The translations under genes and the position numbers were made by a program. DNA of 32,421 nucleotides, taken from the IMG/VR virus record IMGVR_UViG_3300005265_000063, positions 1 through 32,421 of that record, one strand, 5' to 3'. This document shows positions 3,441 through 27,595 of the stretch, piece after piece. The notes under the pieces are model-generated. The model saw nothing but the letters and a program-made list of their open reading frames with translations, made no database searches and had not been told where the DNA came from. This DNA is from a virus. Position 1 is the first letter of the stretch. Each line of letters starts with the position of its first letter.

Positions 3441-3451
3441 TTTGTCCTCCT

Positions 3452-5001: not shown

Positions 5002-5026
5002 TCTTCTTCACCTCCTTTCTGTGGAA

Positions 5027-5374
5027 TTAAAATGGAGCCTCCTCGGCCTCCTGAGTTTCCCTCTTGCTGCCTAAAAATTGAATTCGATTAGCAATAACTT
5101 CTACTCGAGATCTTTTCTCTCCGTCTTCGGTCTCCCAGCTAGATTGTGCTAATGAACCTTGAACAGCAATCTGCCTGCCCTTTTCAAGGAATTCATTGCA
5201 GGTCTCGGCCAATTTGCCAAAACAAACAATGCGGAACCAGTGGGTGCGTTCCTCACCACTAGAACGAATATCGGAGACGGCCACATTGAGATTGCAAACA
5301 GCGGTGCCATTTGGGGTATAACGCAACTCAGGATCGGTGCCTAGCCTGCCAACTAACACCACGGAATTGATCAT
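5027..5374 (-). CDS. ssb: single-stranded DNA-binding protein
   Basis: 115 aa. The OB-fold hallmarks are clear: MINSVVLVGRLGTDPELRYT, then an H-W-F-x-I-V-x-FG strand, EFLEKGRQIAVQGSL and a closing strand ending FLG. The tail is short and acidic and ends EEAPF, close to the DDDIPF-type tip by which bacterial SSB recruits repair proteins. At 115 aa it is shorter than cellular SSB (about 160-180 aa) because the linker is nearly absent. A GGAGGTG site precedes the ATG. It should coat phage ssDNA during replication and work with the ERF/exonuclease pair. Confidence 0.95.
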   Translation of the reverse strand: MINSVVLVGRLGTDPELRYTPNGTAVCNLNVAVSDIRSSGEERTHWFRIVCFGKLAETCNEFLEKGRQIAVQGSLAQSSWETEDGEKRSRVEVIANRIQFLGSKRETQEAEEAPF

Positions 5375-5406
5375 GGCTTATCACCTCCTTTCAATTTGAG
5401 TCAACT

Positions 5407-5592
5407 TCAATCTTCTTTGACATAGAAGACCAGCAACACTAAATCGCCAGCATAACCAGGCTGAGGATTTGGGTCAATGGCCAATTTGGCATCAACTACT
5501 CTAACTTCAGGGTGTGTAGCAACCCAGTGATTAAACAAAGACTCCGTTTTGGTGGGAGGAGAATAGAAAATCTTTAATTTTAGCCCTTGCAT
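5407..5592 (-). CDS. small hypothetical protein
   Basis: 61 aa with a GGAGGTG site 7 nt before the ATG. Two beta segments (LKLKIFYSPP and DLVLLVFYVKED) flank a helix (ESLFNHWVATH). It lies just upstream of SSB in the transcript. Not recognised. Confidence 0.55.
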   Translation of the reverse strand: MQGLKLKIFYSPPTKTESLFNHWVATHPEVRVVDAKLAIDPNPQPGYAGDLVLLVFYVKED

Positions 5593-5693
5593 CCGTATTC
5601 ACCTCCTTTCAATTTGGCATAACTCAAAATTGCGCCGCAGTGTACAAAGTCTGAGCCGAAAGGCTTGGCCGTTAGGCCAACTTGACTTTTCAT
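5580..5693 (-). CDS. very short ORF, uncertain
   Basis: 37 aa (MKSQVGLTAKPFGSDFVHCG onward). Its ATG overlaps, as ATGA, the stop of a 10-codon ORF at 5722-5690 that does have GGAGG 6 nt upstream, so translation could be coupled. The same frame stays open to a GTG at 5768 with no ribosome site. Its last codons cover the ribosome-binding site of the next gene. It may be only a spacer. Confidence 0.25.
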   Translation of the reverse strand: MKSQVGLTAKPFGSDFVHCGAILSYAKLKGGEYGCKG

Positions 5694-5813
5694 AAGAATT
5701 TTGTTAGACAGAGGATAGCCATAAGTGACCTCCTCTCTGGTACCGGTGGGTGTGGCGTCTGCCGGCACCTAACCAGCCAGGCGGGCACTACCGTCCACCC
5801 ACCGGATTCTTCC

Positions 5814-6113
5814 TTATTTTAAGCCTAGCTTTTTGTCCAATTTGTTCAGGTCCCTTACCCACTTCCTGATCAAATGTTTTGGATAAGGTTTGCCATCAAT
5901 CATGCAGTTAGGCCGGCCCAGGTAACTCCACTCAACTAACCAATTCAAGTAAGTGGGTGAAAAGCCGAGGTCTTGGGCGGCCTTTACCGTCTCAGCCCAG
6001 GTAACCTTCTTGGCCTTAGCTGGTGCTATGGGCAATGCCGAGATAAGAAGAAAGAAGATCATAGAAAATATAAGGCCAGAAATTAAAATGGAGGAAAAAT
6101 CTTGGAGTCGCAT
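5814..6113 (-). CDS. secreted or membrane-anchored small protein
   Basis: 99 aa with GGAGGTG 6 nt before the chosen ATG. A hydrophobic stretch at about residues 9-31 (ILISGLIFSMIFFLLISALP) followed by APAKA looks like a signal peptide with possible cleavage near residue 34. The mature region has several aromatic residues (YLNWLVEWSYLG) and a basic helical C-terminus. It is the second exported small protein of the early region. Function unknown. Confidence 0.6.
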   Translation of the reverse strand: MRLQDFSSILISGLIFSMIFFLLISALPIAPAKAKKVTWAETVKAAQDLGFSPTYLNWLVEWSYLGRPNCMIDGKPYPKHLIRKWVRDLNKLDKKLGLK

Positions 6114-6115
6114 CG

Positions 6116-6319
6116 CTAACACCTCCTAGAATTAGAGATTTCACGACAGAACAACTGCTTTTTCTTCTGAGACCAGCATCGCCAAAGGTAGGAGCGTTGA
6201 TGAGAGTTAAGGCAAACACCCTCGGTCTTGAGAAGAAATGCGAAATATTTTAAATCCTGGATAGTGTTGCACTCAGCCAGGTGATTCTTAAAGTTTTCAA
6301 ATTCTTTAGCCGTGTTCAT
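6116..6319 (-). CDS. small hypothetical protein
   Basis: 67 aa with GGAGG 5 nt before the ATG. Helical N-terminus and a basic, cysteine-containing end. A 21-nt stretch at its 3' end (6136-6156) recurs almost unchanged at 6466-6487 ahead of the first gene of the operon. Not recognised. Confidence 0.55.
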   Translation of the reverse strand: MNTAKEFENFKNHLAECNTIQDLKYFAFLLKTEGVCLNSHQRSYLWRCWSQKKKQLFCREISNSRRC

Positions 6320-6447
6320 CTTGACCTCCTTTTGATTTTCACAAAGATAACTGAATACCCTGCAGCGTCAACCAGAGACCAGGGTACTGGAGGCTTAATA
6401 TAAAACGCATGATAAGGTTTGGGACGATAGAGCAAAATTCTCACCAT
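6316..6447 (-). CDS. small hypothetical protein, first gene of the early run (43 aa)
   Basis: 43 aa, below a 60-codon cutoff, starting MVRILLYRPKPYHAFYIKPP. A GGAGG site lies 6 nt upstream, and the stop overlaps the next ATG as ATGA, the coupling seen throughout this genome. The C-terminus is basic (KIKRRSR). It is the first supported gene after the terminator near 6.66 kb, so it probably opens the main transcript. Confidence 0.6.
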   Translation of the reverse strand: MVRILLYRPKPYHAFYIKPPVPWSLVDAAGYSVIFVKIKRRSR

Positions 6448-6640
6448 AGCAGCCTCCTTTCAGTTAGATTTCACGACCAGAACAACTTTTGGTTCAGTTC
6501 TATGACCAAATAGCGGGTTTAGACCCAAACCAATGGAAAATTGAGTTAAGACTTCGGTAGCCAAAGTGTAGGGAGGACGGAGGAGGGTGGTGGGTGGGAA
6601 TGAAACACATCTGCTTATGAAGAATTCATAAGGAGATGTG
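6448..6640 (-). promoter_or_regulatory. intergenic region upstream of the main operon
   Basis: This gap separates a strong terminator from the first early gene, so the main minus-strand promoter should lie here. I see no convincing -35/-10 pair. It contains one copy of a three-copy 19-bp element (6491-6523), the short palindrome GGGTTTAGACCC (6516-6527), a four-tract G-rich run on the plus strand (about 6570-6598), and a near-duplicate of the 3' end of the following gene at 6466-6487. Confidence 0.4.
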
Positions 6641-6643
6641 TGA

Positions 6644-6690
6644 CCTTATTTAAAAAGGCCAAAAAAAAAAGAATTTTTTTGGGCCTGCCC
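6644..6690 (-). terminator. Rho-independent terminator after the 6710-7447 gene
   Basis: Read on the minus strand, a 7-bp stem with a UUCG tetraloop closed by C-G (CTGCC-TTCG-GGCAG core) is followed by a second hairpin, GGCC plus seven A pairing with seven T plus GGCC, and then TTTTT. It begins about 20 nt after the stop of the 6710-7447 gene and should insulate that gene from the early operon. Confidence 0.7.
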
Positions 6691-6709
6691 GAAGGCAGAC
6701 CCGAAAGGC

Positions 6710-7447
6710 TTAGAAGAAGCGAAGCTGCCTCTGAGAGCGAGGCTTGAACCAAGCCCTCAAAACGGCAACTCTGAGAAGCCAAATATAAATAAACTCTTGA
6801 GTTCGAGAACGAGACTTTTGAGCAGGAAGACGAGCTGGTAAACTGCCGAGCTTGTGCCACCCGAATGGAGAGCCGACTGTAACTTTAACTTCCTCAGCTT
6901 CAATGCAACCATCAGGATCAACACTTGCAACAGGCTCAACTGAACTGGTGGCTTCAACCAACCCAATTTCGGTAGCAAGTTGCTGGAAGTAATTGAGAGC
7001 TCTGGAGACTCCTCTCTTCCTTATCCACCTACAAAACGTGACAACCATTTCGTAGGTAGAATCCAGAATTGCGAAATAATCAGCGAGGTAAACAGCTGCC
7101 CTTAATGAGCAGCCGGCTAACCGAGCAACAAACTCAGGTCGCAGGTAAGAAACGCAGCTGTCAGCGCTCTTTCGGAGATGAGGGACTAAGAAGCTGCCAT
7201 CAGGAGCTTGAGAACCTTCTTCAAAAATCATTCTATCAAAATCGTGCAGCTTTGGAGGCCTAAAGGCGTCAGGAGACCATTGGAAAGCCTCCTGAAGAGA
7301 ATCAAACCCAGGACGAGAAAACAACCCAGCTTCCCAACCATCAGATGGAACTACGGAACCAGGATGATGTGAACACACTGCCTCACTGCCGCCGTTAGCG
7401 GAGTGAGCGAAACCTTTACTTTGCCTTAGATTTTCTTGGTTTTTCAT
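6710..7447 (-). CDS. hypothetical protein with unusual composition
   Basis: 245 aa, not recognised. It has a GGAGGTG site 4 nt before its ATG and a strong terminator right after its stop, which supports expression. Residues about 100-165 look like a real helical domain (RPEFVARLAGCSLRAAVYLA, then a helix with CRWIRKRG). The C-terminal 50 residues are basic and low in acidic residues. Compared with other genes here it is rich in Ser, Arg, Phe and Leu and poor in Lys, because the coding strand is pyrimidine-rich. A 31-bp inverted copy of its translation start lies at 7879-7909. It could be a recently acquired gene, or a fortuitous frame opposite a plus-strand RNA. Confidence 0.5.
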   Translation of the reverse strand: MKNQENLRQSKGFAHSANGGSEAVCSHHPGSVVPSDGWEAGLFSRPGFDSLQEAFQWSPDAFRPPKLHDFDRMIFEEGSQAPDGSFLVPHLRKSADSCVSYLRPEFVARLAGCSLRAAVYLADYFAILDSTYEMVVTFCRWIRKRGVSRALNYFQQLATEIGLVEATSSVEPVASVDPDGCIEAEEVKVTVGSPFGWHKLGSLPARLPAQKSRSRTQEFIYIWLLRVAVLRAWFKPRSQRQLRFF

Positions 7448-7468
7448 CTGGCACCTCCTAAAAGTTTT
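7438..7468 (-). repeat. 31-bp inverted repeat, left arm (start region of the 6710-7447 gene)
   Basis: Perfect inverted copy of 7879-7909. It contains the ribosome-binding site, the ATG and the first three to four codons of the gene starting at 7447. Weaker similarity continues for about 18 nt into the coding region. Confidence 0.9.
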
Positions 7469-7666
7469 TCACCCTCACTAGACAGAGCAAGCCGAATGAC
7501 AACCAAATCCTGGGCAGAGGGCGTGAGGAGGGCAGGGATAGAGTTAGGTGGACTAATTAAGGCAAGGGCAATTGACTGGTTGGCATGAGGCTTGTCCCCG
7601 CTTAGAAGGCGTTAGAAGGTGGTTGAGAAATGTAACCACTTTTATGACCTTAGAATTGGAATTTTT

Positions 7667-7703
7667 GAATACAAACCTGGGATTTGGTCATCAACCTAAA
7701 CCA
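7667..7703 (+). repeat. three-copy element, copy B
   Basis: Contains AAACCTGGGATTTGGTCAT followed by AAC and AACC spaced as in the copies at 24934-24969 (same strand) and 6491-6523 (opposite strand). The 19-bp core differs at three or four positions from the others. Confidence 0.65.
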
Positions 7704-7718
7704 CAGAAGCGACGAAGC

Positions 7719-7748
7719 CGACAGGGAAACTGGCGACAGGGAAACTGC
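7719..7748 (+). repeat. 15-bp tandem repeat, pair 1
   Basis: Two adjacent copies of CGACAGGGAAACTG followed by G or C. The core GGAAACTG resembles the GGCAAACTG of the second pair about 35 bp further on. Iteron-like in layout. Confidence 0.85.
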
Positions 7749-7780
7749 TTGGGAGGGGCCCTCTGGGAAGGAGACCAAGC

Positions 7781-7810
7781 AGGCAAACTGTCGGCAGGCA
7801 AACTGTCGGC
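7781..7810 (+). repeat. 15-bp tandem repeat, pair 2
   Basis: Two exact adjacent copies of AGGCAAACTGTCGGC. With pair 1 this gives four spaced copies of a G-G-A/C-A-A-A-C-T-G core within 92 bp, a typical layout for repeated protein-binding sites. Confidence 0.85.
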
Positions 7811-7878
7811 GAAGGCGAAAAGTGATGACACATTCCTCAAGCAGCTTCTTAGGCCTTCTTAGCGGGTGCTTTGTTTCG

Positions 7879-7909
7879 AAAACTTTTAGGAGGTGCCAGA
7901 TGAAAAACC
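7879..7909 (+). repeat. 31-bp inverted repeat, right arm
   Basis: Perfect inverted copy of 7438-7468. It places a GGAGGTG site and an ATG on the plus strand at 7900, but this frame stops after seven codons (MKNLRKS). It is either a duplicated gene start or an arm of an invertible or structured segment. Confidence 0.9.
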
Positions 7910-8014
7910 TTAGAAAATCTTAGGCAAAAGGAGCGAACGGAGCGGCCACACGGAGGCGGCAGCAGGAGGGGTAAGGCGGTGGGGGGAGGTGAACATCCAA
8001 CCTGATTTAATCAA

Positions 8015-14480: not shown

Positions 14481-15419
14481 TTAAGCAAGCACATCAATGA
14501 TCAGGTAACCGGCATCAGCGCAAACCAGCTTCTCAGTCCGAATGGACTCCTGTACCCGAATCACATCAGATTTTCTAGACCGGTCTTCATAGGTCTCAAC
14601 GATTGTGCCCTGGGCCTGGAATGCATAGGCAAAAGACAGGGTGCGGAGAGCAGGTCTTGGATTGATATGGCCAACCCAGACATAATCACTCCAGACTCGG
14701 CTAATGGACTCGGAGGCACCTAGCATGGCTGTGTTCTGCCTTGCACCAGGAAAGTAGGCATTGAGGCCCCAAAGCCGTACTGGGAATCCATCCTCAGTTA
14801 ACTGCCTGCTATCTGGCTCCTTCATCAGGGAACGAATTGCAGGGTGCCGGCGAATAGTGCGCCATACGTTTACAGGAATGATTATGGAGTTTGGCTCAAC
14901 TCCGTCTAGTGCCACCTGCTCTCTAGCAGTCTCCACATCGGCCTCAGGATCGGAGTTGACAAAATCCGACCACTGGCTGGTGCCTGAGAGGGTGGTTTTG
15001 TGGCTGGATGAGTAGTTGTCAGCGTCTGTGAACAAATCGGCTACCCGTTTCTCCTTATTGAGCAGCAAAATCTCAAGGAGAATCTCCTGAGTAGTCCTGG
15101 CCAGATCAAGGTACTTCCGAAACTTCTTGAACTCACGCCAGTCAATTGGTTTCTCCAAGGTGTGCTCTTCGCAGTGGTAGGTGTCAACTTCCAGCGACCA
15201 GTCTACCTGAGTTGCCCTGGCTCCATAGGCCCGGCGGTCATCATAAGCGCCCTGGAGATTGGCCTTGGTGAACTTGAAATAAGCCCCATCCTCATTCTCC
15301 TCACCCACTTCCACGATTGGGCAGATTTTGTCTGCTACTAGGCCCGTTTGTGGATAGGCCAAGGAGAGTTTAGTTAAGACCGGGTGAATCTTTGCCTCAT
15401 CAGATTTTGCTATAAACAT
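14481..15419 (-). CDS. major capsid protein
   Basis: 312 aa. The order protease/scaffold, cement protein, this gene is the standard head cassette. The N-terminal region (HPVLTKLSLAYPQTGLVADK, ICPIVEV, then YFKFTKANLQGAYDDRRAYG) and the end (PALRTLSFAYAFQAQG, VIRVQESIRTEKLVCADAGY) match the HK97-fold capsid group in which an E-loop precedes a long spine helix (here about residues 100-130). GGAGG lies 5 nt before the ATG. Confidence 0.8.
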   Translation of the reverse strand: MFIAKSDEAKIHPVLTKLSLAYPQTGLVADKICPIVEVGEENEDGAYFKFTKANLQGAYDDRRAYGARATQVDWSLEVDTYHCEEHTLEKPIDWREFKKFRKYLDLARTTQEILLEILLLNKEKRVADLFTDADNYSSSHKTTLSGTSQWSDFVNSDPEADVETAREQVALDGVEPNSIIIPVNVWRTIRRHPAIRSLMKEPDSRQLTEDGFPVRLWGLNAYFPGARQNTAMLGASESISRVWSDYVWVGHINPRPALRTLSFAYAFQAQGTIVETYEDRSRKSDVIRVQESIRTEKLVCADAGYLIIDVLA

Positions 15420-15429
15420 TCTCTCCTCC

Positions 15430-15852
15430 TTATGACCAAGCTGGGTGTTGAATTCTTCTCACAATGAGTGCCTTGAAATACTCACCATCCGCTGCAGCCT
15501 CTAGCGCCTCACATGCAATCATCTTGCCATCGGCTAGGGACGTTAGCTTTTTCATGTTGCCATTTTTCTCCTCAGTTGCGTTGTAAATACACTGACAAAG
15601 GTCACCACGAGAGATGCTGCCCTGAGCACGAACCCAGGAAACTCCAGCAATTCTCACCCGAACTGCCTCACCATCATCCGCATCCATTTGCGCTACGCCC
15701 ACGATTACGGTTCCAGCAGAATCACCGCTTTCTAATGGCTTGACCTGATTATCTGCTGTGCCTGCCTTAACACCCATGTATTTCTTGATGTCGCCCTCAG
15801 CAATAAAGGTTGCGTCAATGCCCGTTAATTCAATTGCCGGTGTTAGTGCCAT
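15430..15852 (-). CDS. capsid cement/decoration protein (DUF2190-like)
   Basis: 140 aa. All-beta: YMGVKAGTADNQVKPLESGD, a G-x-A-Q-M-D turn, VRVRIAGVSWVRAQGSISRG, and a final KALIVRRI. This is the pattern of DUF2190 head-decoration proteins, encoded between the protease and the capsid gene as here. Translation is coupled to the protease gene (TGATG) with its own GGAGG site 6 nt upstream. Confidence 0.75.
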   Translation of the reverse strand: MALTPAIELTGIDATFIAEGDIKKYMGVKAGTADNQVKPLESGDSAGTVIVGVAQMDADDGEAVRVRIAGVSWVRAQGSISRGDLCQCIYNATEEKNGNMKKLTSLADGKMIACEALEAAADGEYFKALIVRRIQHPAWS

Positions 15853-16412
15853 CACTTACCTCCTTTTTGAAGATAAAGTTCCTTAAATGCCTGTTCATAG
15901 GAAATTTTCTTCTCCTCAGCGTACTTCATGATCTTGCGGTCAAGTTCAAACGCTTCTGGGTCTACATCCTTTGGCACTTCAGGCAAATCATCTTCCTTCA
16001 GCCTTCCAAGTGGAACCACCAATTTGCCTTCCTGTGCAGCCTTGGCGATGTTCATCATCACCTCGGTGAACTTCTCATACGGAGTTTTCTCCTCCTCCTC
16101 AGAGAACTTAACCGGTTTCTGCCAATCAAGCAGCACTAGCAAGTCCTTAAGACCACCTTCATCAATGATGGCAGCTGAAAAACCAGTCTCACTTTTAAGC
16201 CTTTCACAGAAGTAGTCTATGTCCTTCAAGTGGGCCGCACGCTTCTCTGCTTCACGCTCTTTCCTAAGGCGTTCGGTCTCCTCCCTGAGCTTTTTGATCT
16301 CCTCATCCCGTTTCTTAAGCTCCTCAGCAAACTCAATTTTGCCCTCAGGTTTTCCATCGTCTTTCTGTTTTTGCTCATCCCTTACATCCTTCTTCGCATC
16401 TTTGTCTTCCAT
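15852..16412 (-). CDS. internal-start scaffold protein (nested in the protease gene)
   Basis: 186 aa. Within the protease-scaffold gene an ATG at 16412 is preceded by GGAGG with 7 nt spacing, as strong as any site in this genome. It would release the scaffold domain alone: an acidic-basic coiled coil (KKRDEEIKKLREETERLRK) and the C-terminal helical part. In phage Mu the scaffold gpZ is made the same way from inside the protease gene, so the arrangement is credible. Confidence 0.65.
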   Translation of the reverse strand: MEDKDAKKDVRDEQKQKDDGKPEGKIEFAEELKKRDEEIKKLREETERLRKEREAEKRAAHLKDIDYFCERLKSETGFSAAIIDEGGLKDLLVLLDWQKPVKFSEEEEKTPYEKFTEVMMNIAKAAQEGKLVVPLGRLKEDDLPEVPKDVDPEAFELDRKIMKYAEEKKISYEQAFKELYLQKGGK

Positions 16413-17129
16413 CCTTATTCCTCCTATCCACAAGGATTCCTGCCCAGTGTCATCATACCTCGCTAAGACCTCCCGTAGGGATTTGATGCGAGGAATGTCT
16501 GCACCAAGCAGGGCTATTCTCCTTAACACCTTGCCCAAGTTCTTGCCCTCGTGCATAAAGGCTGGATAAATCTCAGCGGAGATGTATTTGTAGGCCTTCT
16601 TCTTAATGGCCTCGGCTACCAGGCGTGGGACATCAGCAATATCTGCAATGAGTTTTTTGCCTTTGCGCTTAAGGGACTCAACCCAGCCCGCTGCCGGAAG
16701 TCCAGCCTTCTTGAGCAAGTCCTGTTCCTCACCATGACCAAGGGCAACTAGTGGCGGGTCAACAACTCGGCTATTGAAGTTTTTGATTATCTCATCCAGG
16801 TCTTTCTCTGTCCAGTCCTTGGTTGCATCTTGGCCAATCTCAAAAATCTCAACATCGGTGATCCTCTCCAGTTCAGCAAACTCATCAAAGTGCGTTAGAA
16901 ACAAAGGACATCCATTCTTCAAGGCGTGGGGACAGCAGTAGGCAGCAGAGATGTCTGTTAAGTCATCTGATACTGGACACTCTGGTGCGTGCTCACACAG
17001 ACTTTTTGGCCAGGGAAATTCAGGATAAAGCTCGGTTTCTGGAATGGGATATGGATAGAATTTTTCACCTTCCCTGAAAAAGAGTGGCCCCTTTTCCTTG
17101 ATGATAAACGGAAATCTTCGCTCCCTCAT
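15852..17129 (-). CDS. prohead protease-scaffold protein (Mu gpI-like)
   Basis: 425 aa. Residues about 92-200 carry the Mu-type protease pattern: D-V-E-I-F-E-I-G, W-T-E-K-D-L-D-E-I-I-K-N-F, P-P-L-V-A-L-G-H, A-A-G-W-V-E-S-L and YKYISAEIYP. The C-terminal 180 residues begin with a long charged coiled coil (about 250-300) typical of internal scaffolds. A leading segment with five cysteines (C45, C51, C65, C66, C74) is not usual for the family and might bind metal. The start at 17129 overlaps the upstream stop as TGATG. A second in-frame start at 16412 probably makes free scaffold. Confidence 0.8.
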   Translation of the reverse strand: MRERRFPFIIKEKGPLFFREGEKFYPYPIPETELYPEFPWPKSLCEHAPECPVSDDLTDISAAYCCPHALKNGCPLFLTHFDEFAELERITDVEIFEIGQDATKDWTEKDLDEIIKNFNSRVVDPPLVALGHGEEQDLLKKAGLPAAGWVESLKRKGKKLIADIADVPRLVAEAIKKKAYKYISAEIYPAFMHEGKNLGKVLRRIALLGADIPRIKSLREVLARYDDTGQESLWIGGIRMEDKDAKKDVRDEQKQKDDGKPEGKIEFAEELKKRDEEIKKLREETERLRKEREAEKRAAHLKDIDYFCERLKSETGFSAAIIDEGGLKDLLVLLDWQKPVKFSEEEEKTPYEKFTEVMMNIAKAAQEGKLVVPLGRLKEDDLPEVPKDVDPEAFELDRKIMKYAEEKKISYEQAFKELYLQKGGK

Positions 17130-17347
17130 CAGTACCACCCAACAGCAGGATTGAAATTGTCCCCTAAGGGCACGATGTTTTTGCTGTGAGCAACATTGCG
17201 TTCAGCATGTGCCCTTGGCTTTGGATACCGGGGAGGATACGGGTATCGATACGGGTAGCGATAGGGATACGGGTAAGGATACCTACGACGATAGGGCGGG
17301 TATGGATACGCCCGATACGGACTTTTCTGTGTTCGTTTTGCTGGCAT
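17129..17347 (-). CDS. Tyr-Pro-Arg repeat peptide
   Basis: 72 aa. After a basic start (MPAKRTQKSPYRAYPYPPYR) it is built from Y-P-Y-R/P units to about residue 44, then ends HAERNVAHSKNIVPLGDNFN. The DNA shows matching degenerate GGATAC/GGGTAT repeats (17222-17310). GGAGG precedes the ATG by 5 nt and the stop overlaps the protease start, so it is expressed. Such low-complexity, cationic, aromatic peptides can stick to DNA or membranes. Real function unknown. Confidence 0.55.
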   Translation of the reverse strand: MPAKRTQKSPYRAYPYPPYRRRYPYPYPYRYPYRYPYPPRYPKPRAHAERNVAHSKNIVPLGDNFNPAVGWY

Positions 17348-17433: not shown

Positions 17434-17862
17434 TTACAACTTGCCTCCTGGGCCAGCGCCTCGCTTCAAGATGAACAGTGGTGAACCCTTTTCCTCTCTC
17501 GTTAGCGTGTACAGGCCCTTGAGCGTTTTGCCTTTGAGCAAAAACTTCTTAAAGTCGGCTTGGTCTACATAAACCGTGACATCACCACTGTCCAGGAGCC
17601 GGTAGTATGACGGCGTATCCTTGGTTGGGTTCCAGAAGGCCGTCTCGTCTCCTGGCGCTAAGTAGCTCTTGTCCTCACCTGGCTTGCCCCGTTTGAGTGC
17701 ATCTTTATCTGGACAGGGCTGTTCATAAGCGGTGGTCTGCTTAACCCGCATAATGTCATGATCCAGGGCAAAGTGCATTAGACCGCCCTGAACCTTCTTG
17801 TCAAAGAAGAGGTGATAAACAACCCGGCTAGGCTGAACAGGGGATAGTAAACGCCCTTCCAT
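17434..17862 (-). CDS. phosphoesterase-like second frame, possible -1 frameshift product
   Basis: 142 aa if started at the ATG at 17862; the frame is open to a TTG at 17886. There is no ribosome-binding site at either. It overlaps the end of the preceding gene by 85-109 nt in the -1 frame. The end (VTVYVDQADFKKFLLKGKTL, KGLYTLTREEKGSPLFILK) resembles the closing strands of a LigD-type phosphoesterase domain. The likely readings are a -1 frameshift extension of the upstream gene, a separate coupled gene, or a sequencing error in one gene. Confidence 0.55.
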   Translation of the reverse strand: MEGRLLSPVQPSRVVYHLFFDKKVQGGLMHFALDHDIMRVKQTTAYEQPCPDKDALKRGKPGEDKSYLAPGDETAFWNPTKDTPSYYRLLDSGDVTVYVDQADFKKFLLKGKTLKGLYTLTREEKGSPLFILKRGAGPGGKL

Positions 17863-18932
17863 TTCATCATCAAATGACAGCGACAATGTTCACCACAGAG
17901 CGTATGCCCTGACCTTGGATAGCACGGCAACTCTGAGAGTTTGTAAGGACTGTGCCGTGTGAGCCAACGGCAGTTTGGGCAGGTCTTCTCATCTCCTCTG
18001 CAAACCCAGTAGTATTTCGCAAAATCGGCCGCAATAGACAGCGCCGGGTAGTGGCTGCTTACCTCCTCAATTACCCTGGTCATCACTCCAGCATTGGGCG
18101 TGGGCAAGGCCTGCATATACTCCTCAGGTTCGGAAGCCTTGTGCATATCCTCCTGGGGTTCCAGAAACTTGATTGTGATGGTCTTGTTGGCAATGGCAGC
18201 AACCAGTTCATCCCTTAGCCGGTGAGCCTCTTTGCCTTTCTTCTTCCAGTACCGCAGCTTTGGCGGAATTTGTCTACGAATGTAGGCCGGTAGACATGAC
18301 TTGCCTTCGGGTGGGTACCATTTCTTCTCCACAGCCCGTTTGGTCAAGACATAGGGCATTGGGTCGCTAAAGAAGGACATCCACACGGTGAGACCTCGTC
18401 CAGTCTTTTCTGGCTCACCAGACTCCAGGCTCTTCTTCCTCCACACATTAGGTAGCTGGCGCACCACAATCCTGCCGGCCAAATTCTTGCCCCAAATCTG
18501 GTATTCGTGGAACGCCGGCTTTTGTGCCAAGAATTCCACCTGCCCTTTGTCCACGATGATCATTGCACCAGGCAGGTAACGGGTAGCACCAACGGTGCCG
18601 GGCGGAAACCATGCCTCCACATGTAGCCACTCGACTGGTTCTGGTGCCTTCTTCTCCGTGACAGTCTTGATGTGGGGATCCAGCAGCACATCAAAGGCCT
18701 TAGGCAACTGCTTTTCAATCATCTCCCTTGCCTCGGTCATGTTCTTGGGCACCTTGTCCAGGCGCTTGATCCAGTTCAGAGTCCAGCCGACTAATGTGTC
18801 CTTAGTGACCTGGAAGCGGAGATCACCGTGCACCGACTTGCCCCGAATATGGGCCTGCAGGACAAAGGCCCACTTCTTATTCTCATCGGGCAGATACATG
18901 TAAGGGTCAGCTGGCAACTCGTTAAACTGCAT
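17778..18932 (-). CDS. LigD 3'-phosphoesterase-like domain fused to MuF-type cysteine motif
   Basis: 384 aa. Residues 20-165 resemble the phosphoesterase module of bacterial LigD, which trims 3' ends before joining: WAFVLQAHIRGKSVHGDLRF has H28, H35 and D37 where LigD uses two histidines and an aspartate. HVEAWFPPGTVGATRYLPGA and a D-K-G strand follow. Residues 311-352 hold C-x6-C-x2-C, SPYKLSELP and C346-x3-C350-x-C352, the signature at the end of Mu gpF-like minor head proteins. Between them is a basic helical stretch. GAGGT lies 5 nt before the ATG. The MuF-like part suggests packaging with the head. Function as a DNA end processor is inference. Confidence 0.65.
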   Translation of the reverse strand: MQFNELPADPYMYLPDENKKWAFVLQAHIRGKSVHGDLRFQVTKDTLVGWTLNWIKRLDKVPKNMTEAREMIEKQLPKAFDVLLDPHIKTVTEKKAPEPVEWLHVEAWFPPGTVGATRYLPGAMIIVDKGQVEFLAQKPAFHEYQIWGKNLAGRIVVRQLPNVWRKKSLESGEPEKTGRGLTVWMSFFSDPMPYVLTKRAVEKKWYPPEGKSCLPAYIRRQIPPKLRYWKKKGKEAHRLRDELVAAIANKTITIKFLEPQEDMHKASEPEEYMQALPTPNAGVMTRVIEEVSSHYPALSIAADFAKYYWVCRGDEKTCPNCRWLTRHSPYKLSELPCYPRSGHTLCGEHCRCHLMMKWKGVYYPLFSLAGLFITSSLTRRFRAV

Positions 18933-19193
18933 TTAAGACCTCAGAATCTTATCCACCCGCTCCAAGATTAACCGGACATCTTCCCTGACTTGATCCCTTA
19001 CAGCACGGAAGTCCTCTCTTAGGGCACTTACCTCATTTCGTAGGCTTCTCATCTCGGCGGTGAAGACCTCCCGGTCAATCTTGCGCTTATCAACTTTGTC
19101 GATCTTTTGGTTAAGAAACCGAATAACGATGCCAAGAAACACGGCAGCAACTCCAATGGTTGCGCCAAACACTTCTGGAAGAACCGAGTGCAT
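18933..19193 (-). CDS. small membrane protein with coiled coil (holin-like candidate)
   Basis: 86 aa. One transmembrane segment at residues 5-26 (LPEVFGATIGVAAVFLGIVI), then a long charged coiled coil (KIDKVDKRKIDREVFTAEMR and a second heptad-rich stretch to the end). The second of two adjacent ATGs has the better spacing to GGAGG. N-terminal anchor plus soluble coiled coil fits a spanin, a holin partner or a membrane tether for the ligation-type neighbours. No family decides. Confidence 0.6.
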   Translation of the reverse strand: MHSVLPEVFGATIGVAAVFLGIVIRFLNQKIDKVDKRKIDREVFTAEMRSLRNEVSALREDFRAVRDQVREDVRLILERVDKILRS

Positions 19194-20344
19194 CATACCT
19201 CCATTTGAATGCTATCTGGAGCAATGAATGTCTGGATGCCTTTTGGGATTCGCACGACCACTGGTTCGGTATAGCGCTCAACCCACTTCACTCGATAGAG
19301 ATAAAGCGGCCAGGTCTCATCCCACCAACTCTTGCGCTCCTCGGTTGTGATGCAGTGGTTGTCAAACTCCTCCAGAAACCGCTCCTTATCAATCTCCTCT
19401 GGCCCACTTAGCATGATAACTCCGTAGCAGTAGTTGTCAGAGATTAAATACAGCGGCTCGCCTATGTGGCTGCTGAAATTGATACTCTTCACGATAGCCG
19501 TCTTTTCACCAGAATGAAGCAACAGGCCATGCGGTGGCACAAGATAAATGCCATAGTAGTCCTCAGCGGTCTTGATAATCTCCTTGCGCTTCCTATCCCA
19601 CTCAGCGATTTCCTCTTTTTTCTTCGGCGGCTCAGATTTCATAAGTGGCTTCGCCAGCCAGTAGAGTTCCCAGAATGAGGAACCATCTTTGCGCTCAGGA
19701 ATGACAAAGTAGACCGACCTTAGAGCATCCACTATTTTGGCAAAGTACTGCTTTACCTCATCCAAACTCCACTCGCCCCACTGTTTGCCCTCTTTAAGCC
19801 GAGGGTAAGCGCTGTTGGCTAGATACCTCAGATCGGCGATAAGTTGGCGCCAACGAGTAGCCGGGTTGGCTAAATCCTCATCCACGCCTTTGGTAATGAA
19901 CAGGTCTGGTTGCGTCTCTGCTGCCTTTTTGTAGACGTACAGGGACATATCATCATCCACCCGCCTTAGGCCTGGCAAAGTGGTGCCAGTGGCAAGAAGA
20001 TACTCTTTGAGACCACGCAAATCAATTGTGTAAGATGGAATGAGAAACCGAGTTAGACGTTTGCGTTTGAGGGCTGCTTCAAGACGCCTGCGAGAGGTAA
20101 TGACGAAATAGGTTGGCACCTTACGAATTGAGATAGTGTAATCTCCAATCTCTGCACGGGTCAGGTCGGCATCCTTCAGCAGATCAATGATTTCTTCCTC
20201 AATCTCATCAATGGTCTCCTCTATTTCCATTCGGCGGACTTTAGGGTGCCATTCCCTCAACTTGCGTTTCTGTTCTGTGAGTTCGTGCAACAACCGTTTG
20301 ACCCGTTTTGTGTCCAACTCAGAGAATGACGTTGTATCCATCAT
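19193..20344 (-). CDS. coiled-coil protein with PUA/ASCH-like C-terminal domain
   Basis: 383 aa. The first 110 residues are a charged helix followed by strands (EETIDEIEEEIIDLLKDADL, then a TISIRKVPTYFVI segment), slightly like phage Gp157-type proteins. The last 110 residues look like a PUA/ASCH beta-barrel: LLLHSGEKTAIVKS, HIGEPLYLISDNYCYGVIML, an H-C-I-T-T-E-E-R-K-S-W-W segment and VRIPKGIQTF. Such domains bind nucleic acid or modified nucleotides. It lies between the hydrolase and phosphoesterase genes, so a nucleic-acid guide role is plausible. GGAGG is 6 nt before the ATG. Confidence 0.55.
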   Translation of the reverse strand: MMDTTSFSELDTKRVKRLLHELTEQKRKLREWHPKVRRMEIEETIDEIEEEIIDLLKDADLTRAEIGDYTISIRKVPTYFVITSRRRLEAALKRKRLTRFLIPSYTIDLRGLKEYLLATGTTLPGLRRVDDDMSLYVYKKAAETQPDLFITKGVDEDLANPATRWRQLIADLRYLANSAYPRLKEGKQWGEWSLDEVKQYFAKIVDALRSVYFVIPERKDGSSFWELYWLAKPLMKSEPPKKKEEIAEWDRKRKEIIKTAEDYYGIYLVPPHGLLLHSGEKTAIVKSINFSSHIGEPLYLISDNYCYGVIMLSGPEEIDKERFLEEFDNHCITTEERKSWWDETWPLYLYRVKWVERYTEPVVVRIPKGIQTFIAPDSIQMEV

Positions 20345-21080
20345 AGGCTACCTCCACGTTTTTGTGGTACTCCCTTGCGGCTTCGGCAAGTTTTTCATCG
20401 CCCATCTTCAGTGGCTCAGTGCCAAGATGGGTAATGATAATCCTAAGTGACTCCTTAGCGTCCTTTGTCCAGTTTTTAAGTTGATCCACTAAGGACGCAT
20501 GCCCAATTGGGATTCCACCTTCCTTAGCCCGTCTCACTAATGGCTTGCTGAAGGATGACCCATCACAAATCCAGATGTCCAGGTCTTCAAAGAACTTCTT
20601 TCTGTCTCCGGTATGAAATCCGACAATATCAGTCGCAATTCCGACAAGAGCTCTTGCAGTTCCGACCTTGAACACCGACATTGGGCATTTGGTTGAGTGT
20701 AAGACTGGGAATGACCGGACACTGAAAGGGCCAATCTTGAGCTCCTCACCTGAGTACTTGAAGACTTCCCTCTCCACCGGGTACTTCTCCTTATCAAGGC
20801 GCTTGTGTGTTTCGGTTGACATAAACACCCGCCCCTTGACCTCGTTAATCTCCTGGCACACATGATCTGGATGGCAGTGTGAGATCAAGATGTCATTGCA
20901 CTCTGGTAAGGCGCCTCGATTTATCTCACCAAAATCGATGAGCACGGTATAACCATCTTGCCGCAGAAGAATAGCGGTGTGGTACCGATGCTGCTGGCTG
21001 TACTGCTCAATGTAGCCTCGAGTGCCCAAAAATGTTATGGAACACTCGGCGTAGCGCTGTGGCTCCTCAGGTAGAATCAT
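20319..21080 (-). CDS. metallo-beta-lactamase-fold hydrolase
   Basis: 253 aa. The metal motif H68-x-H70-x-D72-H73 is intact (ILISHCHPDHV), after the family's SITFLGTRG strand and a VLIDFGE loop. Further ligands are likely H in VLHSTKCP, D in GIATDIVGFHTGD and H in IIITHLGTEPL. The fold covers RNase Z, exonucleases and phosphodiesterases; there is no beta-CASP insertion evident. The ATG at 21080 overlaps the stop of the 50-aa gene as ATGA and follows GAGGG, which fixes the start. Placement between ligase and phosphoesterase genes favours a nucleic-acid substrate, by inference. Confidence 0.8.
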   Translation of the reverse strand: MILPEEPQRYAECSITFLGTRGYIEQYSQQHRYHTAILLRQDGYTVLIDFGEINRGALPECNDILISHCHPDHVCQEINEVKGRVFMSTETHKRLDKEKYPVEREVFKYSGEELKIGPFSVRSFPVLHSTKCPMSVFKVGTARALVGIATDIVGFHTGDRKKFFEDLDIWICDGSSFSKPLVRRAKEGGIPIGHASLVDQLKNWTKDAKESLRIIITHLGTEPLKMGDEKLAEAAREYHKNVEVAYDGYNVIL

Positions 21081-21229
21081 TTTCGCCCTCGACCAGTCTT
21101 TTGACATGGCACAATGCGCCACTTACCAAAACCAGTCTTACCGGTGGCTAAGAAGCAAGTCACCCTGCCGGTCTTGGGATTGGTCACTCTGTACACTCTG
21201 CCTGCTGTTGGATTCTTAGGAAGCGGCAT
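21077..21229 (-). CDS. small basic hypothetical protein (50 aa)
   Basis: 50 aa, beginning MPLPKNPTAGRVYRVTNPKT and ending KTGRGRK. It is strongly basic with a beta-hairpin-like pattern and two cysteines (C25, C42). GGAGGAG lies just before the ATG, and the stop is shared as ATGA with the start of the metallo-hydrolase. It overlaps the preceding gene by 46 nt. Short of the usual 60-codon cutoff, it is nevertheless well supported by both signals. It may bind DNA. Confidence 0.6.
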   Translation of the reverse strand: MPLPKNPTAGRVYRVTNPKTGRVTCFLATGKTGFGKWRIVPCQKTGRGRK

Positions 21230-21423
21230 GACTCCTCCTTGATAATTTGTCTAACCCAGGCGCCTAAGGCCATGTTGAGTCTCAACTTGTAATCCACCTT
21301 CTTAACTCTGTCCGAGCCGGCCTCTCTTAGCTCCATCTGAAGTATATCCATTGCCTGCTGGTGTTGCATAGCCAGCCTCCACATTAACCAAGTCGCATAG
21401 ACATCACTCAGATCGTCAAACAT
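21184..21423 (-). CDS. small helical hypothetical protein
   Basis: 79 aa, start at 21423 with GGAGG 6 nt upstream; a longer frame to 21609 has no site and would cover the promoter-like gap. All helical: VYATWLMWRLAMQHQQAMDI, LQMELREAG, then a basic helix (NMALGAWVRQIIKEESCRF). Not recognised. A coiled-coil adaptor is possible. Confidence 0.55.
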   Translation of the reverse strand: MFDDLSDVYATWLMWRLAMQHQQAMDILQMELREAGSDRVKKVDYKLRLNMALGAWVRQIIKEESCRFLRIQQQAECTE

Positions 21424-21547
21424 GCTTTGCCTCCTCGAGGTGGTTTGAGACTCAACCTTAAGGCAACTCGACACAAACGGAACGCCTGGTTCTAGGTGGG
21501 TCTGAGCGCAAATGGGTATTAAGATACTCCCTGGAACAGACACCCCT

Positions 21548-21570
21548 CTTATTTTGCAAATTTGTGCGTC
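21548..21570 (-). repeat. 23-bp inverted repeat, copy 2
   Basis: Exact inverted copy of 9381-9403. It lies in the gap between the ligase gene and its downstream neighbour. The two copies are 12.1 kb apart and enclose the metallo-hydrolase through connector genes. Confidence 0.9.
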
Positions 21571-21580
21571 GTTTTGACAA
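21551..21580 (-). promoter_or_regulatory. candidate minus-strand promoter upstream of the 21423 gene
   Basis: TTGTCA (21580-21575), 18 nt, then CAAAAT (21556-21551), four of six matches to the -10 consensus. It sits in the 186-bp gap between the ligase gene and the small gene starting at 21423. The -10 half overlaps the 23-bp repeat shared with 9381-9403, where no matching -35 exists. Confidence 0.35.
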
Positions 21581-21609
21581 TTCCCGTGATTGCTTTGGCA
21601 CTTATACAA

Positions 21610-23454
21610 CTAAACCTCCTTACTTGGGATTTCCTCACCACTTGCACCGGGCAAATAGTGCACCTTGCCGTCCTTGTCAATTATCTTGGCCTGGAAACAC
21701 CGTTTGGCAATGGCCCGTTTCTCAATGGCATCAATTGTGTCAACCGGCTTATCAGTCTTGCCCATAAACCTCGGTGCCCAGGCTGAGAAATCCCAGGCTT
21801 CTTCTCTCATGTCATAAATCACGTTGAAGGTTTCAGTTTCAATTACAATGTGGTCACCACGATGGCCCAACTCCTTCTCTGTGACCGCAAAAGTCTTGCC
21901 ACCGTAGGCCACTTCCATGCCATTGATTTTGCGAATAATTTTCTCTTTCACTCTCCGTTTGCCAGGTAAAATGGCCCACTTCAAATTGAACACACCCTTG
22001 GTCTTGGTCTCCACGGCCTCAAGCACAATGGCCACAAATTGCACGGAGTTATGGAACTTAATCCAGCTCTTAGGCCTCCTTCCCGTTAGGTCATAGGGTG
22101 CACTGGCCTGCTTGGCAACATTGCCCTCGGAACCTGGTAATTTGGCCAGCCGAATAGTTTCCTTCCTCAATTCCTCCCTTGTGCGGTTTAAATGATGTGG
22201 CAAAAGATTGAGCTTTAATTCTGTATCTGGAATCATCTCAGTGCGTTGAGGAAAGTTCATAGACTGTAACCGTTTCCAGCGCTCAGAGAATGGCAGTTTG
22301 TGAATATCACCTTCCTTGCCAAAATAGACCACATCAAACACTGAACCAATTAACGGGCTATCATCCACCTCCTTGGTGCGTAGGATGGATGCAGTGAACT
22401 CCCTTGGGAAGTGTTGGGATCCTCTCCAGGCCTCAATCTCCAAGTCAAGGCAGAACCGGTCAGGTCGCAGCCGTTTGAGTGCAGCGACAATGCTTGGAAC
22501 CTGCTTAGTAATCTCCTCACCATCCTCGGTGTAGATAATCACCTTGTTTCTGTCTCGCCAGGCAATGGCGTGGAAGCCATCAGCCTTCTTGGAGCTGTAA
22601 ACAGGGAACTGCTCATCATCCCAAAGGGAGATGAAGAAATCCAATGTCTGTGGCTGACCCGGCACGTAGCCTCTGCACGGCTTCTGTGGCAAGAAGAATT
22701 GGAAGAGGTGGATTTTGTCCTCCGTCATTGCCCGCCTTGCCTCCTCCTCAAGCCGCTGTGCGCCTTTCACCCGCAAACGAATTGCAAAGGAGAGCGGAGA
22801 GGAGGTGGCTCCGCTCTCCAGAAAGGAAGTGAAAAGGCCCTCTGCCATAGGGGTGACTTGGGCGTCGGGAATGCGCTCATATTTTAACCGATATAACGGC
22901 AGAAAGCTAGTGAATGGAGACCGGGCGCCTCGCTGTTCCCACAGGAAGTGAACTCGATCTGCCAATTCCCTTGGCAGCATCCTGTAAATGCGAAAATCGA
23001 TTATCCTTGCCATCTCCTCTGCATCAGGCAGCATGTGGAGGATGTCACAATCACCACGGGTCATACCTCGCTCCACTATGCCGCCTACTATCCAGGTTGT
23101 TGGAGTTGCAATCACAAAATCCTTAAGATGTGGCAAGAAGTCTGCCAGGGTAATTGGTGGGCCAATCTCCTTGCCTGAGCCTCGCACTGGTGCATAGGGA
23201 TAGCCAAACGTGACCTTTTCCGGTGTCTTAGGAATCACTTGAAGGAAGGCTGCAGCATCCTCATCCAGCGGAGTCTTGGCCTCCGGAAACTTTGCGCCCA
23301 ACTCAAGGAGCCTCCGTTTGATGAGGAGAAACTCATTGATCATCTGTTCATTTTGCTGGGTCGGGTGCTCTCGTTTCCAGGCCGCATACTCCTTGCGCAA
23401 TTTGGCTGCCCGGAGTTTGAGTCGTTCAATCTCCTTCATCTCCCCAAAGCCCAT
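21610..23454 (-). CDS. nucleotidyltransferase-like domain fused to ATP-dependent DNA ligase
   Basis: 614 aa. The C-terminal half is a DNA ligase: motif I K290-ADG (SSKKADGFHAIAW), a motif III-like LDLEIEAW at about 336-343, motif IV EGNVAK at 443-448, motif V SWIKFH near 463-468, then an OB-like domain opening FVAIVLEAVETKTKG. Residues about 120-140 (TTWIVGGIVERGMTRGDCDI) match the GG...GxTxGDxD signature of polymerase-beta-type nucleotidyltransferases; DCD supplies two acidic residues. A charged helix opens the protein. The start is uncertain (23454 or 23439). Lying directly after the portal genes, it probably seals genome ends late in infection or on entry. That role is inference. Confidence 0.8.
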   Translation of the reverse strand: MGFGEMKEIERLKLRAAKLRKEYAAWKREHPTQQNEQMINEFLLIKRRLLELGAKFPEAKTPLDEDAAAFLQVIPKTPEKVTFGYPYAPVRGSGKEIGPPITLADFLPHLKDFVIATPTTWIVGGIVERGMTRGDCDILHMLPDAEEMARIIDFRIYRMLPRELADRVHFLWEQRGARSPFTSFLPLYRLKYERIPDAQVTPMAEGLFTSFLESGATSSPLSFAIRLRVKGAQRLEEEARRAMTEDKIHLFQFFLPQKPCRGYVPGQPQTLDFFISLWDDEQFPVYSSKKADGFHAIAWRDRNKVIIYTEDGEEITKQVPSIVAALKRLRPDRFCLDLEIEAWRGSQHFPREFTASILRTKEVDDSPLIGSVFDVVYFGKEGDIHKLPFSERWKRLQSMNFPQRTEMIPDTELKLNLLPHHLNRTREELRKETIRLAKLPGSEGNVAKQASAPYDLTGRRPKSWIKFHNSVQFVAIVLEAVETKTKGVFNLKWAILPGKRRVKEKIIRKINGMEVAYGGKTFAVTEKELGHRGDHIVIETETFNVIYDMREEAWDFSAWAPRFMGKTDKPVDTIDAIEKRAIAKRCFQAKIIDKDGKVHYLPGASGEEIPSKEV

Positions 23455-23611
23455 GTGGCATAGGATCCTGGTCAAACACAATCTTAGCAACGCCGGAGAG
23501 TGGAATCAAGGTGCGCTTGCCCTCATTTATTGTGGTTACGAAGGTCTGGTCAATGAAGACATCGTTCTCCTCAAAATCCGTAATGTCACCATTGAGATAA
23601 CTTACTCGCAT
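23426..23611 (-). CDS. small hypothetical protein
   Basis: 61 aa with GGAGG 5 nt before the ATG. Beta-rich (MRVSYLNGDITDFEENDVFI, TLIPLSGVAKIVFDQ) with an acidic end. It follows the portal pieces immediately and overlaps the ligase start by 29 nt, so it probably couples ligase translation. Not recognised. Confidence 0.55.
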   Translation of the reverse strand: MRVSYLNGDITDFEENDVFIDQTFVTTINEGKRTLIPLSGVAKIVFDQDPMPHGLWGDEGD

Positions 23612-23620
23612 GTAGCCCTC

Positions 23621-24277
23621 CTAACCTGTCGATGCAATAAAGCGAATGACCCGATTTGGAATGGCTTCAATGGACTCATAACTCGGCGACCTAGCTCGAT
23701 GAGTCATAACGAAGAAGCCATCCTTATCTCGGCCAATGCTTACGCCTCTAAACCGTCCACTTTTTCGTGGAAAGGTAATTTCTCCTATCTCAAGCTGTGT
23801 TGCCCGCTTGTCTACCATCTTGTATTTACCAAACCGTATCTCCTCAGCAAATGGTGCCCAAGATTCTAGATCAGCAAAGACCCGTCGTGGCCTGCCTCGT
23901 TTTTTCCTCTTCTTCCTCTCTTGCTCCTTCCATGGAAACCTCAGGAGAATTTGTGGATAGCGGTCAGTGACAAAGTTGAAGTCCACAATGCGTTTGACTA
24001 ACTGCTGCTGAAGGACATCGGCAATGGCAATGCCATCGGCCTCAACCCGCTCTTGCCGTACCTGGCTGTGTGCCCTGGAAAGGGCATAAGAACCACGCCG
24101 GCCTTCCTCCACGGTCTGAGTTGCGCCTAAGATGGCCTTGCTGATCTCTGCATTGCAGAAATCAATTAAATCACGGTAGGAGGCTGGTGCCGATCTTGAG
24201 GCCTCCAGAAGACTCACACTGAGATGATCCGGTATGGCTACGGCGGTTTCTTTTTGAATGGACTCTAAGATTTCCAA
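23621..24277 (-). CDS. portal protein, C-terminal part (DUF935-like)
   Basis: 218 aa from a TTG without a ribosome-binding site. It matches the second half of Mu gp29-like portals: ESIQKETAVAIPDHLSVSLL, YRDLIDFCNAEISKAILGAT and a V-D-F-N-F-V-T-D-R-YP segment that lines up with the C-terminal wing. It overlaps the first portal frame by 13 nt in another frame, so expression would need frameshifting, coupling or correction of an error. The joining region lacks the NPYG-containing stretch expected between the halves. Confidence 0.65.
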   Translation of the reverse strand: MEILESIQKETAVAIPDHLSVSLLEASRSAPASYRDLIDFCNAEISKAILGATQTVEEGRRGSYALSRAHSQVRQERVEADGIAIADVLQQQLVKRIVDFNFVTDRYPQILLRFPWKEQERKKRKKRGRPRRVFADLESWAPFAEEIRFGKYKMVDKRATQLEIGEITFPRKSGRFRGVSIGRDKDGFFVMTHRARSPSYESIEAIPNRVIRFIASTG

Positions 24278-24894
24278 CAGGGCATCTTGTTCTGTGCATC
24301 GTAGGCGTAGTGGATTACCTTAGTCCATGGCACCTTTTTCAATGACACGCCTGCCTCTTTGAAGAAGATCTCACTTTCGGTGATGCCGTGGAACCGTTTG
24401 TCCTTAAACGCCCAATACTTTTGAGGATGGAAGACCAGCTCCTCAATGCCCCACTTGCCCTTGTATGGCCCAGTCTTAATTTCCTTCCACACAATTTCCA
24501 GGACGGCAAAGCCCTTGCCGACAGCATCCATCAACTGGAAAATGTCCTCACTGAAGATGCCCTTAGCATCATCAATGACGGTGAGGACAAAATCGGCAAT
24601 GTCCTTGTCCCTTTGCCTGTCACTGGCTGGCACTATCTCCCAGGGAATGCGGCTTACGGCTAGTTTCCTTGTTTGGTAAACGGAGTAAAGATGAGCATCC
24701 TTGGCCTCCATCTCATCGTAAATCTTAACGCCCTTCTTGCGCAGAACCTCATCGGGATTCTCATCAGCAACGCCAAGGATACTGCGAAAGCTCTTCTCTT
24801 CAACCTTCAGCCCTTGGAGTGGTGGCCGCTTAGCCTCCTGGTCTGCTCGTTTCTCTTCCGTGAAGAAATTTTTGATTCGTTCCCAAAGTTTCAT
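24265..24894 (-). CDS. portal protein, N-terminal part (DUF935-like)
   Basis: 209 aa. Opening KLWERIKNFF, then LYSVYQTRKLAVSRIPWEIV, a D-A-V-G-K-G-F-A-V-L-E-I-V-W segment, and FHPQKYWAFKDKRF: the order of Mu gp29-like (DUF935) portals through which DNA is packaged. The frame stops at 24265 after KVIHYAYDAQNKMP. Together the two frames give about 425 residues against roughly 500 for the family, and about 60-70 residues of the central region are absent. The ribosome site is weak, and a copy of the three-copy element lies directly upstream. Confidence 0.7.
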   Translation of the reverse strand: MKLWERIKNFFTEEKRADQEAKRPPLQGLKVEEKSFRSILGVADENPDEVLRKKGVKIYDEMEAKDAHLYSVYQTRKLAVSRIPWEIVPASDRQRDKDIADFVLTVIDDAKGIFSEDIFQLMDAVGKGFAVLEIVWKEIKTGPYKGKWGIEELVFHPQKYWAFKDKRFHGITESEIFFKEAGVSLKKVPWTKVIHYAYDAQNKMPCWKS

Positions 24895-24933
24895 TTTAGC
24901 TACCAACCTTTGCCCTGTTAAATCTCAAATCTT

Positions 24934-27511: not shown

Positions 27512-27514
27512 TAA

Positions 27515-27587
27515 AGCGGAGAGCAGGACTTGAACCTGCACCTACCTGACTGGCAGTCAGGCGCTCTACCGATTAAGCTATCCCCGC
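27515..27587 (-). tRNA. tRNA-Gly (anticodon GCC)
   Basis: Full cloverleaf on the minus strand: acceptor GCGGGGA/TCTCCGC with one G-U pair, D-stem GCTT/GAGC, anticodon stem CCTGA/TCAGG around the loop CTGCCAG (anticodon GCC at positions 34-36), T-stem GCAGG/CCTGC with loop TTCAAGT. The discriminator is U73, usual for bacterial tRNA-Gly. CCA is not encoded (TTTA follows), so the host must add it. It is the only tRNA seen and lies between the RyR-type gene and the nuclease-like gene. Confidence 0.95.
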
Positions 27588-27595
27588 TCACTTAA

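Follow-up and report, generated by a model that had tools for sequence, protein, structure and literature searches.

The 32,421-base virus record analysed here (IMG/VR IMGVR_UViG_3300005265_000063; this whole stretch of DNA is referred to as the window) encodes, within its head-gene block, a nucleotidyltransferase (NTase) fused to an ATP-dependent DNA ligase and a protein with the fold of the LigD 3'-phosphoesterase (PE). We propose, with about even chances of being right, that these genes represent, in unfused form, a modular, head-associated kit for DNA repair, which is found between portal and capsid genes in many uncultured tailed viruses and is usually made as one polypeptide. On the minus strand of the window, the gene order is terminase, Mu-type portal, NTase/ligase (626 aa), a 141-aa open reading frame (ORF), a metallo-beta-lactamase (MBL)-fold hydrolase (267 aa), a 383-aa protein, an 87-aa protein, PE with a cysteine motif (384 aa), a 150-aa protein, Mu-type protease and capsid. 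The gene coordinates and order between portal and protease agreed with a preliminary description of this DNA, which had read the set as a split, LigD-like end-joining kit. The word "split" fits the window and a few relatives, but in general the fused state is commoner.

The ligase domain was recognized by Pfam (DNA_ligase_A_M, 6.9e-14), and its structural model was matched by Foldseek (9.7e-20) and aligned with archaeal and human DNA ligases with a Z of about 26 (VIA). Searching PDB with a profile of nine relatives retrieved archaeal and eukaryotic DNA ligases (best 1.5e-23), and the domain resembles DNA ligases rather than RNA ligases. The catalytic residue K290 as well as E339, D374, E443, and K466 were invariant across the nine-sequence alignment and, at the residue level, the active site is shown to be intact. 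A scan with the single ligase sequence from the window returned no relatives; the alignment-based scan succeeded. Ahead of the ligase lies a putative Pol-beta palm-type NTase domain. A 20-member profile of this family matched only DNA polymerase beta in PDB, weakly (E 0.22), and Pfam NTP_transf_2 recognized 7 of the 20 members. The motif reads G-G/S...D-x-D, with an invariant DxD. Because the NTase part of the model had low confidence (pLDDT about 30-65), this fold was assigned from sequence profiles alone. Both the NTase-ligase fusion and the MBL-fold hydrolase named in the preliminary description were recovered, the NTase through its weak polymerase beta match.

The AlphaFold model of the PE protein was confident across most of the first 250 residues, and a LigD 3'-phosphoesterase fold spans the first 256. 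Four LigD PE structures were the sole significant Foldseek matches (1.2e-7 to 3.3e-6). Using VIA-align, the archaeal PE 3p4h gave a Z of 16.2 at 1.8 A over 117 of 118 residues; LigD PEs occupied the top six rows, and the best-ranked unrelated structure scored a Z of 5.1. The LigD-type phosphoesterase previously claimed is upheld by these structural comparisons, while a LigD match to the window protein itself was sought in Pfam (LigD_N), NCBIfam and PHROGs and none was found. One relative (L008) scored above the curated LigD_N cut-off (57.1 vs. 31.1 bits), so that the viral PE and LigD_N families are bridged by sequence. A search of PDB sequences with the PE profile put the correct family on top, but with an E of 0.33. 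In Pseudomonas aeruginosa LigD, the PE metal ligands are His42, His48, and Asp50, to which Arg52 is added (PMC8656161). The corresponding metal ligands and arginine are retained in the window (His28, His35, Asp37, Arg39) and conserved in nearly all members. Differences between the PEs of the window and of the relative L001 amounted to 0.31, 0.24, and 0.64 at codon positions 1, 2, and 3, a pattern that shows purifying selection. A second PE-like module (PE2, the 150-aa protein), which the preliminary description overlooked, has degenerate catalytic residues in the window. In relatives PE2 is fused behind the first PE, and the corresponding copies in L008, L017, and L041 retain the H...HxD motif. 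The PE and PE2 ORFs share about 109 bases (window 17778-17886) in different frames, an overlap that could be due to coupled translation, frameshifting or mutation.

Alignments were used to scan viral contigs and genomes, and 34 PE loci were obtained, the window and ANMV-1 included. These loci formed 31 clusters at 90% PE identity, 23 at 70% and 10 at 50%, the latter two figures indicating that they are not copies of one virus. The ligase was present at 31 of the 34 loci and shared one ORF with the PE at 24, while the XkdF head-maturation protease was found within the same ORF at 21. A link to the head genes had been set beforehand as a test, and it was found: 31 of the 34 PE loci are adjoined by a same-strand portal or capsid gene, and L004 was the only locus with no head gene within reach. 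All these tallies are lower bounds since several of the locus stretches end at contig ends. Multi-enzyme proteins ending in XkdF were seen in L007, L011, L016, and L032, among others. Uracil-DNA glycosylase (UDG) was part of the same polypeptide in seven relatives (L011, L025, L027, L029, L030, L032, L035), and a pyrimidine-dimer-glycosylase-like domain (Pyr_excise) together with radical SAM was fused ahead of NTase-ligase-PE in two others (L009 3230-7954, L018 2531-7690). Single polypeptides also carried 2'-5' RNA-ligase-like (2H) domains beside the repair modules (L016 8834-13186, L027 7358-11125), and methyltransferases of two kinds occurred in the long proteins of relatives.

Among known phages, the PE was clear in ANMV-1 only, in which NTase-ligase-PE-PE2 form one 866-aa protein directly behind a portal-like gene. 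The host of ANMV-1 is thought to be archaeal (PMC4372165). Another locus (L036), the single one obtained with a narrower PE alignment against genome contigs, lies within a metagenome-assembled genome (MAG) labelled Dehalococcoides. The hosts therefore appear to span both prokaryote domains. A different contig of the same MAG harbored a second element, with a ligase and three PE modules in series (L041 178-3617). In a survey of 400 genomes from the phylum of this MAG, matches were obtained in two genomes, so the element is rare there.

That unrelated auxiliary genes were gathered by chance in a late operon, with no joint function, is very improbable. The genes of the window are indeed separate, and those of 141 and 87 aa have no repair link, but many viruses that are divergent from each other carry the same modules as fusions, with the head region as the almost constant location. 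We rejected this explanation, under which more than 20 contigs would have to contain fusions created by misassembly. Judging from folds, fusions and position, the kit probably acts on viral DNA after delivery, in strand-break and base-excision repair. The evidence suggests, rather than proves, that the virus packs a DNA-repair kit of its own into its particles, and the protease fusions are better evidence of head association than the MuF-like motif put forward initially. The repair enzymes would be produced with the head proteins and brought into the procapsid by the protease or by head-targeting parts, and the head protease would cut the modules apart. In the particle or upon delivery, the kit would mend lesions of the viral DNA, its targets being nicks, gaps and perhaps the ends of the incoming genome. 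The glycosylases seen in relatives would excise damaged bases and the PE modules would remove blocks from 3' ends; nucleotides may be added by the Pol-beta-like NTase, and the ligase would seal. Taken together, glycosylases, 3'-end cleaning and sealing are the makings of base-excision and strand-break repair, and such a set is a better fit to the mending of aged virion DNA than to end joining alone. The main rival, which we hold to be unlikely, is that the kit seals nicks and gaps of concatemers in the producing cell so that the packaging motor is not stalled, with the protease fusion as a procapsid tether and no delivery. Indeed, the head-operon site and the protease fusion suit a procapsid-docked enzyme equally. 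However, glycosylases acting on base damage are better suited to aged virion DNA than to fresh concatemers, and a procapsid-internal protease usually carries its fusion partner in.

Several observations weigh against a head-associated kit that acts after delivery. The modules of the window are on separate genes, none of which is fused to the protease, and no glycosylase was found in its own kit. The third carboxylate of the NTase, kept in most relatives, is replaced by arginine in L001 as in the window, and the NTase may thus be inactive in the window copy. The MuF-like motif (CPNC...CGEHCRC) is present, as the preliminary description had it, but weak, with Pfam Phage_Mu_F below its cut-off (0.18) and phrog_595 at 5.5e-4, and it is absent in the PE protein of L001. 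In the PE, the positions of the phosphate ligands His84 and Tyr88 (P. aeruginosa numbering) are occupied by Glu98 and Trp102. The HPLDY sequence, which we take to be the LigD PE motif holding His84 and Tyr88, aligns with QPxEW or EPVEW in the viral PEs, most members having Gln or Glu and Trp, in an alignment of sequences and not of superposed structures. Since mutating His84 or Tyr88 inactivates the P. aeruginosa PE (PMC8656161), the chemistry of the viral PEs may differ, and their activity as 3'-phosphatases may be changed or missing. Finally, the portal gene of the window is broken. By BLASTP, it lacks the residues equivalent to 209-259 of the L001 portal (~50 codons) and has a frame shift; the L001 portal is whole (3264-4448). 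The virus copy in the window may hence be defective, or the contig misassembled.

Bacterial LigD unites polymerase-type, phosphoesterase and ligase modules in one protein. The viral kit shares with LigD, which works with Ku, and with the stand-alone archaeal PEs (3p4h, 3p43) the ATP-dependent DNA ligase domain, the PE fold and the Mn-binding His/His/Asp with the Arg52 equivalent, and most viral relatives are likewise fused. It differs from them by a Pol-beta-type NTase in the place of Prim-Pol, the replacement of His84/Tyr88 in most members, additional PE-like copies, a location in the head operon and a frequent fusion to the head protease. A search of 31 records for the Prim-Pol domain (AEP, PF21686) gave no match, even with E values up to 1 allowed. 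Ku (PF02735), the partner in bacterial non-homologous end joining (NHEJ), was found in none of 30 viral records and once in the host MAG; as many of these records are fragments, its absence is moderate evidence. With Prim-Pol and Ku not found and two PE residues replaced, we do not class the kit as a LigD. It is expected to act like the PE-ligase half of LigD, that is, the end-cleaning-and-sealing module of LigD/LigC. The LigD-like label of the preliminary description stands for the modules and for their belonging together (24 of 34 loci in one ORF), but not in the strict sense.

True NHEJ or circularization seems improbable to us. In this scheme, the incoming genome would have its two ends trimmed by the PE, filled by the NTase and joined by the ligase, and Ku would be replaced by the Gam-like part of the 383-aa protein. 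The set of modules parallels LigD, and the N-terminal half of the 383-aa protein (window 19691-20344) has its best matches in Mu-Gam-like families (phrog_253), with an E of 0.011 in the window and 1.7e-6 in the L004 homologue (4994-5500). Mu Gam has been described as a Ku orthologue (PMC1378119), and there is a precedent in mycobacteriophages Omega and Corndog, whose Ku works with the host LigD (PMC7719229). In these systems a phage-borne end-binding protein aids an incoming linear genome, but the phage supplies Ku or Gam and the host LigD, whereas the virus of the window supplies ligase and PE with no clear Ku. The Gam match in the window is weak, as was a direct profile-profile comparison with Mu Gam (0.032 against a background of about 0.1). 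Moreover, the Gam-like family was detected in three records only, the 383-aa protein is missing from most fused loci, and neither Ku nor Prim-Pol was found in the viral records searched. End joining or circularization, the role initially assigned to the kit, is thus not favored, and the UDG and pyrimidine-dimer-glycosylase-like domains point to base-excision and nick repair instead. The 383-aa protein had also been taken for a PUA/ASCH-like protein. This reading is not supported, no ASCH profile match having been obtained in the window protein, its relatives or PDB. In L008 and L020, the C-terminal domain of the 383-aa protein is part of an NTase-ligase fusion. In L004, it is part of a 1063-aa protein (4790-7981) with a Gam-like, a NADAR and a DprA-like domain.

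The MBL-fold protein grouped with YhfI-like and RNase-Z-like hydrolases. A single ORF of L008 encodes MBL-PE-PE-protease and an MBL-family gene adjoins the ligase-PE gene in L036; for these reasons, we consider the MBL protein as belonging to the kit. A weak similarity to the anti-Pycsar enzyme Apyc1 was also noted (0.004), and the protein may be a signalling-nucleotide hydrolase. This similarity would fit an injected counter-defence set, in which the MBL protein would degrade a signalling nucleotide in the manner of Apyc1 and the NTase, ligase and PE would mend or modify cuts made by the host in nucleic acids, RNA ends included. The 2'-5' RNA ligase/2H domains (L016, L027) and methyltransferases of relatives, and the NADAR and DprA-like domains of L004, are in line with such a set, and polyvalent proteins have been interpreted likewise (PMC5512222). 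However, the constant core of ligase and PE is a DNA-repair pair, the ligase is of the DNA and not the RNA type, and a PADLOC run matched nothing of interest. We therefore regard counter-defence as doubtful, slightly more so than end joining.

Polyvalent proteins, known from phages and conjugative elements, contain many disparate enzyme domains per polypeptide, are encoded with head genes, and are predicted to be packaged and injected (Iyer et al. 2017, PMC5512222); they offer a precedent for head proteins of several domains that enter the cell with the DNA. The relatives, but not the window, resemble them in joining several unrelated enzyme domains and a virion domain in one polypeptide. They differ in having a pair of DNA-repair domains as their constant core and a head protease as their virion domain, and a text search of that article revealed no member with a DNA ligase, LigD PE or XkdF. 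A close known relative is the ANMV-1 protein AJP62006.1 (KP703175.1), with the same NTase-ligase-PE-PE2 order by a portal-like gene and 42% PE identity, but annotated just as an ATP-dependent DNA ligase; the word "ligase" is absent from the description of ANMV-1 (PMC4372165). Fusions of an enzyme with the XkdF (S78_2) head protease in one ORF also exist in PHROG 1530 (methyltransferase) and PHROG 14859 (RNA ligase), but no LigD-like repair set is part of these as annotated. In the open-licence literature, we found no description of the present ligase-PE-head-protease fusion.

The features of the window are listed in the table below. Directly upstream of the protease, a small protein (window about 17121-17346, L001 11398-11790) has a C-terminal end common to both viruses, NIVPxGxNxNxxVGWY, and is Tyr/Pro/Arg-rich in the window vs. 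Gly-rich in L001. A tRNA-Gly (gcc) gene is located at window 27514-27588, upstream of the terminase genes.

Table. Features of the proposed repair kit, ORFs lying between them and head-gene neighbors in the window.
Feature	Position	Strand	Basis or remark
Major capsid protein (context)	14481..15419	-	By position; conserved with L001 13613-14551
Mu-type head maturation protease (context)	15852..17138	-	phrog_976 1.1e-39
PE2, second PE-like module, 150 aa	17434..17886	-	PE profile match; PE vs. PE2 profile comparison, E 5e-5
MuF-like cysteine motif, C-terminal to PE	17865..18029	-	Weak
LigD-type 3'-phosphoesterase (PE) domain	18165..18902	-	Foldseek 1.2e-7; VIA Z 16.2; motif survey
87-aa membrane/coiled-coil ORF	18933..19196	-	No specific family match
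383-aa protein	19193..20344	-	N-terminal half weakly Mu-Gam-like; C-terminal domain common to ligase fusions
MBL-fold hydrolase, 267 aa	20319..21122	-	Lactamase_B_2 8.7e-6; phrog_392 7.2e-8; PDB 1zkp 1.1e-15
141-aa ORF	21184..21609	-	No family match
NTase/ATP-dependent DNA ligase/OB fusion	21610..23490	-	626 aa from TTG at 23490; 614 aa from 23454
Putative Pol-beta palm-type NTase domain (G-G...D-x-D), ahead of ligase	22825..23157	-	Family profile; Pfam in relatives; column check
Mu-type portal gene, broken, two ORFs	23621..24906	-	Portal_Mu 8.7e-24 and 8.8e-31

Phages are usually held to mend virion DNA with host enzymes or with newly made ones. We tentatively suggest, at somewhat less than even chances, that widespread tailed viruses of bacteria and archaea build a self-contained polyprotein for strand-break and base-excision repair into their heads, which would be released by the protease, delivered with the genome and mend damage from long dormancy before replication. 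The LigD phosphoesterase family would also extend to viral head proteins, and LigD-like chemistry would be placed in a new context, one that lacks Ku and Prim-Pol. This reading lends itself to a clear test, as a single gene couples the repair enzymes with a protein for which entry into the head is expected. If true, repair would travel with the genome, with the ligase, the end-cleaner and glycosylases synthesized in a single chain together with the head protease; this would bear on the survival, from one infection to the next, of viruses whose hosts are slow, hot or buried.

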